Source of the DNA: Flavobacteriales bacterium
Lineage (GTDB): Bacteria > Bacteroidota > Bacteroidia > Flavobacteriales > Flavobacteriaceae
Assembly: GCA_027061855.1 (NCBI GenBank)
Contig: JAMOVT010000072.1
Coordinates: forward strand, 1-34,188
Length of the DNA stretch: 34,188 nucleotides
Direction: 5' to 3'
Below are positions 1 through 22,640 of this stretch, piece after piece. Each line of letters begins with the position of its first letter. Within the stretch, counting starts at the first letter, position 1. The notes under the pieces were generated by a model that had not been told where the DNA came from, made no database searches, and saw only the letters and a list, made by a program, of their open reading frames with translations. A program made the position numbers and the translations under genes.

Positions 1-38
1 TGAACCAGCGACACTCCCGAAGCAATTTCGGGATGCTC
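1..38 (-). pseudogene. pseudo-tRNA-Asn unit 1 (cut by window edge)
   Basis: Only the T-arm part, the substitute hairpin (TCCCGAA-ATTGC-TTCGGGA on the minus strand) and the 3' end of the D-arm are inside the window. Its 5' flank matches the type A spacer. The acceptor end lies outside the window, so the array continues to the left for at least this unit. Confidence 0.7.
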
Positions 39-58
39 TATATCCCTTAATTCATTAT

Positions 59-89
59 AAAAAAAGGCAAGTGAATTTTTCCACTTGCC
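59..89 (-). terminator. terminator of pseudo-tRNA unit 2 (type A)
   Basis: Perfect 8-bp stem GGCAAGTG/CACTTGCC (66-73 with 82-89) and an 8-nt loop, followed on the minus strand by a run of seven T. Confidence 0.8.
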
Positions 90-97
90 TTTCTCTG

Positions 98-162
98 CTC
101 CTCCAGCTGGACTTGAACCAGCGACACTCCCGAAGCAAGTTCGGGATGCTCTAACCAATTGC
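98..162 (-). pseudogene. pseudo-tRNA-Asn unit 2
   Basis: The T-arm and 3' acceptor strand (99-105) are identical to the functional tRNA-Asn, and the D-arm stretch TTGGTTAGAGC is kept. The anticodon arm is replaced by the TCCCGAA...TTCGGGA hairpin. The 5' acceptor strand is replaced by an AT-rich flank, so a normal acceptor stem cannot form. In tRNA numbering the 7-nt loop would read ACTTGCT, with C instead of the near-universal U at position 33. Confidence 0.75.
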
Positions 163-164
163 AT

Positions 165-195
165 AAAAAAAGCACCTGCAAAACTTGTAAGTGCT
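165..195 (-). terminator. terminator of pseudo-tRNA unit 3 (type B)
   Basis: Imperfect hairpin with outer stem AGCAC/GTGCT (171-175 with 191-195), an inner stem and one mismatch, then a T-run on the minus strand. Confidence 0.7.
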
Positions 196-206
196 GGTCT
201 TCTATG

Positions 207-270
207 CTCCTCTATTTGGTCTAGACCGGCGACACTCCCGAAACAAGTTCGGGATGCTCTAACCAATTGC
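207..270 (-). pseudogene. pseudo-tRNA-Asn unit 3 (most diverged)
   Basis: This unit has the same layout as unit 2, but the T-arm and acceptor are mutated (plus-strand 211-229 differs at several positions from the other copies). The substitute anticodon hairpin, with loop ACTTGTT, and the D-arm stretch are kept. The greater decay suggests it is an older copy or is not under selection. Confidence 0.7.
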
Positions 271-272
271 AT

Positions 273-304
273 AAAAAAAGCACCTACAAAAACTTGTAAG
301 TGCT
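273..304 (-). terminator. terminator of pseudo-tRNA unit 4 (type B)
   Basis: Hairpin AGCAC.TACAA/TTGTA.GTGCT (279-289 with 294-304) with one mismatch, followed by a T-run on the minus strand. Confidence 0.75.
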
Positions 305-317
305 TAGTCATTTTTTG

Positions 318-373
318 CTCCTCCAGCTGGACTTGAACCAGCGACACTCCCGAAGCAAGTTCGGGATGCTCTA
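318..373 (-). pseudogene. pseudo-tRNA-Asn unit 4
   Basis: The T-arm and acceptor 3' strand (319-325) match the functional gene, and the TCCCGAA...TTCGGGA hairpin replaces the anticodon arm. Upstream of the D-arm remnant TAGAGC the sequence is the type A flank, so most of the D-arm and the whole 5' acceptor strand are missing. Confidence 0.75.
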
Positions 374-391
374 TATCCCTTAATTCATTAT

Positions 392-422
392 AAAAAAAGG
401 CAAGTGAATTTTTCCACTTGCC
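392..422 (-). terminator. terminator of pseudo-tRNA unit 5 (type A)
   Basis: Stem GGCAAGTG/CACTTGCC (399-406 with 415-422) followed by a run of T on the minus strand. It repeats the hairpin that follows the functional tRNA-Asn. Confidence 0.8.
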
Positions 423-430
423 TTTCTCTG

Positions 431-483
431 CTCCTCCAGCTGGACTTGAACCAGCGACACTCCCGAAGCAATTTCGGGATGCT
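431..483 (-). pseudogene. pseudo-tRNA-Asn unit 5
   Basis: This is the unit immediately downstream of the functional tRNA-Asn. The T-arm and acceptor 3' strand (432-438) are intact, the substitute hairpin has loop ATTGC, and the 5' flank is type A. It is nearly identical to unit 4 apart from one hairpin-loop base and the downstream spacer type. Confidence 0.75.
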
Positions 484-504
484 CTATATCCCTTAATTCA
501 TTAT

Positions 505-535
505 AAAAAAAGGCAAGTGAATTTTTCCACTTGCC
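505..535 (-). terminator. tRNA-Asn terminator (type A)
   Basis: Stem GGCAAGTG/CACTTGCC (512-519 with 528-535), 8-nt loop and T7 on the minus strand, starting 9 nt past the tRNA 3' end. This is the natural end of the tRNA-Asn transcript. Confidence 0.85.
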
Positions 536-543
536 TTTCTCTG

Positions 544-617
544 CTCCTCCAGCTGGACTTGAACCAGCGACACCCTGATTAACAGTCAGGTGCTCTAACC
601 AACTGAGCTATGGAGGA
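544..617 (-). tRNA. tRNA-Asn (anticodon GTT)
   Basis: A full 74-nt cloverleaf on the minus strand. The 7-bp acceptor TCCTCCA/TGGAGGA (611-617 with 545-551) carries discriminator G at 544. The D-arm contains TTGGTTAGAGC, the anticodon stem CCTGA/TCAGG encloses loop CTGTTAA with anticodon GTT, and the T-arm has loop TTCAAGT. CCA is not encoded, since the discriminator is followed by CAG, so it must be added after transcription. It has its own promoter upstream and a terminator just downstream. The tRNA-like array that follows derives from this gene or a sister copy. Confidence 0.97.
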
Positions 618-635
618 ATTTTGCGATTGCGAGTG

Positions 636-22152: not shown

Positions 22153-22195
22153 ACAAGCCCGGGCAAAAATCCCCGGCACGAGTTCGAGTCTTGTT
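22153..22195 (+). pseudogene. tRNA-Asp-like remnant in the tRNA-Asp leader
   Basis: The segment 22177-22195 contains a T-arm-like stretch (GAGTTCGAGTCTTG) close to that of the neighbouring tRNA-Asp. Before it lies a GC-rich hairpin, GCCCGGG-CAAAAAT-CCCCGGC (22157-22177), where the anticodon arm would be, and the outer ends AACAAG/CTTGTT (22153-22158 with 22190-22195) can pair. No D-arm and no normal acceptor remain. It sits between the promoter and tRNA-Asp, so it is probably transcribed as leader. Confidence 0.5.
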
Positions 22196-22250
22196 AAAAA
22201 CGAAATTGACATAATGAAATTATTCAGTTGCAAAAGCAACAAAAATATTT

Positions 22251-22324
22251 GGTCCGGTAGTTCAGTTGGTTAGAATACATGCCTGTCACGCATGGGGTCG
22301 CGAGTTCGAGTCTCGTCCGGACCG
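22251..22324 (+). tRNA. tRNA-Asp (anticodon GTC)
   Basis: Complete 74-nt cloverleaf: acceptor GGTCCGG/CCGGACC with discriminator G, D-arm with TTGGTTAGAA, anticodon loop CTGTCAC with anticodon GTC, and T-arm with TTCGAGT. CCA is not encoded. The upstream gap holds a small GTTGC-AAAA-GCAAC hairpin (22227-22240), possibly relevant to 5' processing. A terminator follows 8 nt downstream. Confidence 0.97.
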
Positions 22325-22332
22325 CAATTGTA

Positions 22333-22370: not shown

Positions 22371-22640
22371 ATGATTCATTACGTTTACATCCTTCATTCG
22401 CTTTCTTTTGATAAGTACTATAAAGGCTATTCTACGCAGCCATTGATCAGATTGGCACAGCATAATTCCGGTGAGAGCCGTTATACGAGTTCTTTTACCC
22501 CCTGGGAATTGGTTTATCTGCAATCTTTTTCCACCAAACGTGAGGCTCTTAAAAGAGAAAAAGCCTTAAAGAAGTATAGTAAATCTCAAATTCTTTCTTT
22601 GCTTTCCGTTATTAAAAAATCAATTACTTCTCCCCATTAA
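22371..22640 (+). CDS. small GIY-YIG nuclease-family protein
   Basis: 89 residues, a single GIY-YIG domain: YVYILHS at the start, YYKGYS for the YIG strand, the arginine in LIRLAQHN, and the catalytic-glutamate region REALKREKALKKY. This UvrC-like stand-alone group (UPF0213-type) is common and multicopy in Bacteroidota; its function is not established, though a DNA nuclease role is likely. The ATG at 22371 begins the domain and lies 10 nt after the tRNA-Asp terminator. The 3' end overlaps the convergent prenyl synthase gene by 21 bp. Confidence 0.82.
   Translation: MIHYVYILHSLSFDKYYKGYSTQPLIRLAQHNSGESRYTSSFTPWELVYLQSFSTKREALKREKALKKYSKSQILSLLSVIKKSITSPH

Follow-up and report, generated by a model that had tools for sequence, protein, structure and literature searches.

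The tandem array of tRNA-Asn-like units at the left end of the window, as the whole 34,188-bp stretch of DNA analysed here is called, is probably made up of non-autonomous members, lacking an open reading frame (ORF), of a family of tRNA-homing elements that encode a GIY-YIG nuclease, a reading that draws on the comparison of genomes. Elements of a common anatomy are found at tRNA genes of nine isotypes in several phyla, carry a conserved hairpin with covarying stem pairs, and occur in three states (empty, nuclease-bearing, and ORF-less) at the tRNA-Arg genes of one genus. In its full form, the element would consist of a functional tRNA gene, a terminator-like stem, a single-domain GIY-YIG ORF of about 80–90 codons, a partial copy of the tRNA, and a second stem, the anticodon arm of the partial copy (at some loci its T-arm or D-loop) apparently having been remade as a hairpin of the form T(C/T)CCGA...TCGG(G/A)A.

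Anatomy of the array downstream of tRNA-Asn

The window is the entire contig C72 of a 2.04-Mb genome assembled in 117 contigs and starts inside the array, which is therefore truncated by the assembly; as originally predicted, the array runs off the window, the contig ending within unit 5. Its parts are as follows.

543..617, minus strand: functional tRNA-Asn(GTT), from which the unit sequence derives (ARAGORN; Rfam RF00005, 72 bits at 544-617)
430..542, minus strand: unit 1, 113 bp, with an A/T-flanked stem-loop, a short spacer with the end of a D-arm remnant, the hairpin, and the variable region, T-arm, and acceptor 3' strand
480..504, minus strand: spacer of unit 1, ATAATGAATTAAGGGATATAGAGCA
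461..479, minus strand: hairpin of unit 1, replacing the anticodon arm
317..429, minus strand: unit 2, 113 bp, nearly the same sequence as unit 1
348..366, minus strand: hairpin of unit 2
206..316, minus strand: unit 3, with the second type of spacer, ATGCAATTGGTTAGAGCA, a perfect hairpin, and a mutated T-arm (206-234)
236..254, minus strand: hairpin of unit 3
97..205, minus strand: unit 4, second spacer type ATGCAATTGGTTAGAGCA, T-arm intact
128..146, minus strand: hairpin of unit 4
1..96, minus strand: unit 5, first spacer type ATAATGAATTAAGGGATATAGAGCA, truncated by the contig end
15..33, minus strand: hairpin of unit 5

The five hairpins, the tRNA-Asn gene, and Tandem Repeats Finder, which confirms the repeat, agree that the predicted array is real. 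Its hairpins follow one another at 113, 108, 112, and 113 bp, a range of 108–113 rather than the 109–113 bp first given. All five have perfect 7-bp stems and 5-nt loops (TCCCGAA-5 nt-TTCGGGA), and this 19-nt hairpin stands where tRNA-Asn has its 17-nt anticodon arm. On the minus strand, each unit runs from a stem-loop with an A-run and a T-run through a spacer ending in AGAGCA and the hairpin to the tRNA 3' part, in which the variable region, T-arm, and acceptor 3' strand are retained; the 5' acceptor strand is absent, in keeping with the initial description. Three T-arms are complete and intact, that at 206-234 is mutated, and the fifth is truncated with its visible 13 nt intact, so that the earlier count of four unmutated T-arms in five was nearly right; the hairpin stems are all perfect despite the one mutated T-arm.

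Two types of spacer are present, ATAATGAATTAAGGGATATAGAGCA in units 1, 2, and 5 and ATGCAATTGGTTAGAGCA in units 3 and 4. Compared by eye with two other loci (L058 and L016), the unit 1 spacer may be what is left of a deleted GIY-YIG ORF, its start-codon end plus its 3' end, fused to the D-arm remnant. The tRNA-Asn array in the window contains no nuclease ORF; the corresponding nuclease may lie beyond the contig end or have been lost. Inverted repeats of at least 12 nt, sought in window positions 1-620 and in the units of a nuclease-bearing tRNA-Arg locus (L186), were confined to the terminator-like palindrome and its copies. The stem that precedes the hairpin is called terminator-like here by reading.

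Related units in the same genome and in relatives

The pattern TCCCGAA-N3..8-TTCGGGA occurs 16 times in the whole genome against once for a reversed control, and a looser pattern, GAGCRTYCCGA-N3..8-TCGGRA, is matched 119 times, in 65 of 395 genomes from the phylum, against six matches for its control; the array hairpins are therefore not due to chance. Of the 16 genomic hairpins, five belong to the array in the window, six to a tRNA-Val locus on contig C78, and five, on contigs C47, C70, and C113, lie away from tRNAs, while the looser GAGCRTYCCGA pattern adds one copy at a tRNA-Arg gene (C64). The tRNA-Val gene is followed by three tandem units of 378–380 bp, each with a GIY-YIG ORF (PF01541, E 2.7e-17) and a hairpin-swapped tRNA copy, in the order tRNA 3' end, terminator-like stem, GIY-YIG ORF, D-arm remnant, hairpin, and T-arm. 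Two of the three ORFs contain a stop, and the GIY-YIG protein of this locus has 81 aa. By reading, a second hairpin lies in the T-loop of two of these units, and a further copy upstream of tRNA-Val comprises a 5' half with hairpins in both the D-loop and the anticodon arm. The second hairpins (L016, about 2180-2240 and 1815-1850) are followed by CAAGCT and lie in a context, TTCGA...CTCAG, similar to that in C113.

The window itself holds a second tRNA gene, which is accompanied by a nuclease ORF.

22251..22325, plus strand: tRNA-Asp(GTC), the second tRNA of the window (ARAGORN)
22371..22640, plus strand: ORF for a GIY-YIG nuclease, 45 nt past tRNA-Asp on the same strand; 89 aa when read from its first ATG

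No hairpin-swapped copy was seen by eye beside tRNA-Asp. Upstream of it, near 22180 (about 22180-22200), a T-arm-like stretch, GAGTTCGAGTCT, follows a GC-rich palindrome and is perhaps an old unit. Elsewhere in the genome, a further repeat array (C113:1-960) has units of the form GGTGGCTTCGATAC...CACTCAG, in which one position is occupied by the hairpin TCCCGAAGCGAGTTCGGGA in some units and by another insert in others, with no tRNA by ARAGORN, and two tandem copies of a GIY-YIG ORF, the first truncated, lie at a contig start (C67:1-540) with no tRNA found by ARAGORN in 3 kb.

Arrays at tRNA-Asn also occur in relatives. A genome of the same genus has a tRNA-Asn gene followed by two units 117 bp apart that reach the contig start, and two more such units on a second contig (L155), with one hairpin sequence common to both, are presumably part of the same array. 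Their hairpin loop and T-arm are unlike those of the window, and hairpins within that genome are identical or nearly so; possession by this genome of its own tRNA-Asn array, built of another unit sequence, argues against a duplication peculiar to one strain. No nuclease was detected in the 1500 bp that hold its second array piece, and since the array in the window is likewise without a nuclease ORF, the nuclease is linked to the array in the window by analogy. A stricter hairpin pattern, with the loop fixed at 5 nt, has copies in only three of a further 98 near relatives. In a different family of the same order (L160), a contig begins within tRNA-Asn-type sequence just past the anticodon arm and continues with a GIY-YIG ORF and then a copy bearing the hairpin TCACGC-TTAA-GCGTGA, the stretch of T-arm, acceptor, and stem forming a direct repeat that flanks the ORF; the first copy, inside which the contig starts, may or may not be the functional tRNA.

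In one genus of the order, a search of 20 genomes showed tRNA-Arg(TCT) genes, not all at one locus, in several states. One has no unit (L221); three are followed by one to three nuclease units (L241, L226, and L186, the last with three); others carry ORF-less arrays of four units and a decayed fifth at 127–128 bp (L238) or of three units at 196–197 bp (L237), a single ORF-less unit (L242), or three short units with a nuclease unit after them (L240). ORF-less arrays resembling that of the window are thus found both beside and mixed with nuclease units; ORF-bearing and ORF-less units stand together in L240, and in the genome of the window the ORF-bearing units are at tRNA-Val, not at tRNA-Asn. 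The contrast of an empty with an occupied site comes from one pair of genomes, G492 (L221) and G095 (L186), in both of which a tRNA-Pro–tRNA-Arg pair is present with the same gene beyond, and the two are taken as the same site because of that shared gene; immediately past the tRNA, their sequences differ. In L186, the last stem runs on into the flank and the first into the ORF, and from these continuations the insert lies between the stem and the D-arm remnant, with the tRNA 3' part and the stem duplicated.

The remade hairpin and its nuclease

The swapped copies match the local tRNA, with the anticodon arm recoded to T(C/T)CCGA-loop-TCGG(G/A)A. Seventy-six distinct copies were collected at 58 of 116 loci in a set that keeps only hairpins of at least six pairs, canonical pairing there being present by construction; without the hairpin criterion, there are 87 distinct copies at 69 of 133 loci, and at least six outer pairs form in 74 of the 87, nine of the other 13 departing through a single mismatch or a frame shifted by one base. 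Among the 87 copies, covariation at pairs 1–3 and 5–7 (strongest at 2, 6, and 7) lies above all of 500 shuffles, which ignore ancestry, and pairs 4 and 8 do not rise above all of the same shuffles. The outer pair of the 76 copies is T-A in 74, pair 3 is C-G in 73, pair 4 is C-G in 75, and pair 5 is G-C in 72; in the real anticodon arms of those tRNAs, C-G stands at pair 1 in 50, T-A at pair 3 in 68, and G-C at pair 4 in 66. The isotypes with swapped copies are Val, Arg, Ala, Met, Pro, Asn, Lys, Ser (L122), and Gly (L230). Loci L052, L053, L058, L060, and L171-L200 were found through hairpin patterns and are dependent with respect to the hairpin consensus; the 79 loci of the nuclease scan (best 80 of 139) are independent of it. 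One row of the 76 is a pseudo-tRNA miscalled as tRNA-Ile(TAT) (L069). The third unit of L225 (223 bp) was rejected as an ORF deletion, as it holds 99 N; this locus is kept in the counts on 87 copies and its intact nuclease in the tree described below.

Where the copies end can be gauged from how far they match the tRNA. Thirteen of 14 distinct upstream-type copies match for 6–15 nt past the hairpin and one for 28 nt, eight of the 14 keeping at least 27 nt before it, and the 62 downstream-type copies match for a median of 13 nt (4–35) before the hairpin and, in 39 cases, for 28 nt or more beyond it, frequently extending into the terminator-like stem. These lengths make the T-loop and the D-loop frequent copy ends, with scatter. 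At some loci, the anatomy departs from the rule by reading, the hairpin being carried by the T-arm or D-loop (L071, L104, and L130) or half of the anticodon stem persisting beside it (L102 and L230).

The tRNA's own anticodon occurs within the hairpin loop in 19 of 74 copies, L069 being excluded, against a permuted mean of 9.9 (0/5000), with 12 of 39 for Val, 0 of 8 for Arg(TCT), and 0 of 5 for Pro. Since loops resemble the local anticodon loop, the arm appears to have been remade rather than pasted whole at many loci; a constant foreign hairpin inserted as a block is weakened as an explanation by the same likeness, which does not extend to every isotype. A rigid duplex site for a dimer is similarly weakened by the 3–8 nt between the 6-nt half-stems, a variable distance that would favour a stem-loop.

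In the nuclease-alignment scan of named genomes, the best 80 of 139 relatives gave 79 loci, which are mostly from Bacteroidota and also include Ignavibacteria (Ignavibacteriota), Calditrichia, Poribacteria, several candidate phyla, Elusimicrobia, and a Deltaproteobacterium (Myxococcota). A tRNA on the same strand ends no more than 300 nt before the ORF at 50 of the 66 loci with at least 300 nt upstream, some of these tRNAs being possibly miscalled pseudo-tRNAs, and an opposite-strand tRNA does so at none of the 66; the other 16 have no tRNA within 300 nt upstream. Over all loci with such a tRNA, the distance from tRNA to ORF is 31–62 nt in 38 of 53. A hairpin follows the ORF at 67 of 79 loci and in 255 of 1096 control windows, which alone is a weak test, and four loci (L134, L136, L143, and L144) have neither tRNA nor hairpin. 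Conserved GIY-YIG residues are retained, for example E in 72 of 72. Outside Bacteroidota, the full anatomy is seen in Poribacteria (L124), Gracilibacteria (L120), Dojkabacteria (L126), and the Deltaproteobacterium (L137), and Ignavibacterium has an element with a remade T-arm (L104); several other nuclease loci outside the phylum have no tRNA. In L124, eleven tandem pseudo-tRNA-Pro copies at 107 bp precede the nuclease, and in L106, L113, L120, and L122 short arrays lie upstream of their tRNA.

From the hairpin side, the 30 loci obtained with the GAGCRTYCCGA pattern have a tRNA in 16 and none in the examined stretch in 14, and a GIY-YIG ORF in eight, seven of them beside a tRNA and one on the opposite strand without a tRNA. 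As the pattern includes five bases of the D-arm end, its association with tRNAs is partly built in; that with the nuclease is not. One such hairpin-swapped copy, of tRNA-Ala (L189), lies just past adjacent tRNA-Ile and tRNA-Ala genes, such as typically occur in ribosomal RNA spacers. Swapped copies at L052, L058, L060, L080, L087, L098, and L069 are called by ARAGORN as tRNA-SeC(TCA), tRNA-Stop(TTA), or tRNA-Ile(TAT).

Hairpin, nuclease, and isotype vary together. Over 37 loci, hairpin-stem distance correlates more closely with nuclease distance (Mantel r 0.44, 0/2000) than with isotype (r 0.225, 83/2000), and nuclease distance also correlates with isotype (r 0.624, 0/2000). A nuclease tree of 80 rows requires 22 isotype changes against 40.2 when shuffled (0/200) and places Ala and Arg elements from two Niabella records among elements of other families, although it is poorly resolved, with 37 of 77 inner branches open. 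Mantel and tree results alike contain shared ancestry, which may also account for a co-variation that fits nuclease lineages keeping to one tRNA isotype, as in homing.

Origin of the units and likeness to known systems

A homing mechanism would bring these features together as follows. The nuclease would break DNA in tRNA-like sequence, either at the hairpin or at the T-loop, as seems to be the case for the phage protein SegB, and repair templated by a different tRNA copy would place the element beside a tRNA, lead to tandem multiplication, and keep the tRNA-derived parts like the local tRNA. ORF-less units could then multiply through the action of a nuclease supplied in trans, or simply by unequal recombination. 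The hairpin may be either a preferred cut site or a protected one; as a counterpoint, a nuclease that cut the functional tRNA gene would harm its host. Of the three readings in the original prediction, a recombination target built on the tRNA comes closest to this evidence. A bolder version, to which we give somewhat less than even credence, holds that a minimal GIY-YIG nuclease and a disarmed copy of the host tRNA form an undescribed class of mobile elements in several phyla, in which the arm would be the structural site of the nuclease and breakage would always yield tRNA-matching ends, the array in the window being a gene-less, self-multiplying remnant.

Ordinary unequal recombination or slippage might instead have raised a satellite from a duplicated tRNA 3' end with no enzyme involved, the hairpin being accidental or common in the genome. 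The near identity of the units in the window would suit such an origin, as would the hairpin shared by the L155 pair, as in homogenised satellites, the existence of ORF-less arrays, and the hairpins away from tRNAs; it is nevertheless unlikely in view of the recurrence of the same stem at the same tRNA position across isotypes and phyla, the covariation of its pairs, and its association with one nuclease. The satellite born from tRNA duplication that had been envisaged is a fair description of the array that misses its likely cause. A quite improbable reading is that the units template tRNA-mimic RNAs, acting as decoys or, in the manner of type III systems, as an RNA antitoxin to the GIY-YIG nuclease. 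It can appeal to the folding of four units, in which the hairpin and the preceding stem form in 4/4 (z -4.95, -4.78, -3.02, and -0.29), to the likeness of loops to the local anticodon loop, to four promoter-like sites in the array region against 1.1 expected, three of them (TGGAAA-18-TATAAT) just before the hairpin part of 113-bp units, and to the single terminator-like site that passes a simple scan there (0.8 expected). The T-arm as such folds in only 1/4, however, and the best unit scores 16.7 bits against the Rfam tRNA cut-off of 29, which within positions 1-720 is passed by 544-617 alone. Downstream copies lack the 5' acceptor strand and upstream copies, including the sister arrays that sit upstream of their tRNA, lack the 3' part, so that neither type can mature as an ordinary tRNA, and the small tRNA mimics first proposed find little support beyond the promoter-like matches. 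PADLOC returned only weak UzuA and PDC-S14 hits for three GIY-YIG proteins (best E 1.1e-4), none of which qualified as ToxN-like. A whole-window Rfam scan gave no non-tRNA family above its gathering score; sub-threshold Plastid-ycf2 rows, antisense to the tRNA and its units, were set aside.

Integration by tyrosine recombinases at tRNA 3' ends duplicates the 3' part of the tRNA, and the duplicated 3' parts seen here could on that ground be regarded as attachment-site remnants of such an element. We judge this very improbable, since the conserved feature is the remade anticodon arm rather than the 3' end, 13 of the 14 upstream-type copies match the tRNA so briefly past the hairpin, and the gene found in the units is a GIY-YIG nuclease. 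An artefact of assembly, suggested by the start of the window at a contig end inside the array, and the assembly error that had initially been considered, is hardly credible, as the ORF-less arrays L237 and L238 lie inside long contigs of other species, of 283 kb and 1.25 Mb, and single units are present in the single-contig genomes G061 and G087.

Several known systems share some of these features. Downstream of E. coli tyrT, tandem copies of the tRNA 3' end form the rtT repeats, and the array in the window also repeats a tRNA 3' end downstream of its gene; here, however, a conserved hairpin stands in for one arm, there is a link to a nuclease family, and Rfam gave no rtT match, either in the whole window at the gathering score or in positions 1-720 at E up to 5. 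Short ORF-less copies beside ORF-bearing relatives and a conserved palindrome recall MITEs and REP/RAYT systems. In the latter, a Y1-type (HUH) transposase is linked to the palindrome, whereas the nuclease here is of the GIY-YIG type, and in place of the terminal inverted repeats of MITEs the units are joined by direct repeats of the tRNA 3' part and the terminator-like stem. Group I introns and free-standing homing endonucleases offer the GIY-YIG domain, occupied and empty sites, and nuclease lineages clustered by isotype; unlike in group I introns, the tRNA remains intact with a disarmed copy added, and the endonuclease model scores 20.3 bits against a cut-off of 56.05. A full-text search of the literature, mostly outside subscription journals and without preprints, found no description of this anatomy. 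In kind, they are best placed with the free-standing homing endonuclease elements that occupy tRNA genes, as a variant whose remade tRNA arm is unmatched to any family.

If this is correct, a recurrent selfish element resides at tRNA genes in many bacteria and is easily missed, as ARAGORN skips the tRNA-like copies or calls some of them tRNA-SeC, tRNA-Ile(TAT), or tRNAs with stop anticodons, which makes swapped copies a source of false tRNA annotation. The small GIY-YIG proteins of Bacteroidota would gain a concrete target, and the pairing of nuclease and hairpin would allow coevolution between a nuclease and the remade arm of an RNA gene to be tested.

The closest parallel is SegB of phage T6, a free-standing GIY-YIG homing endonuclease with cleavage peaks inside tRNA genes, which, together with its catalytic residues, is required for the tandem amplification of a tRNA segment via recombination and for which the motif RAWTSGAAC was found at 23 of 83 sites (PMC13096335). 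By our own reading, the complement of that motif resembles the T-loop. SegB has a further C-terminal part. A C-terminal truncation of it is mentioned (PMC13096335). The two systems share a GIY-YIG nuclease beside tRNA genes and tandem tRNA amplification; they differ in that SegB is a phage gene for which the available text describes no recoded tRNA copy, whereas the nucleases considered here are single-domain proteins of 80–90 aa in bacterial genomes. Should the proposed reading hold, the elements would be a chromosomal counterpart to the amplification of phage tRNAs driven by SegB.
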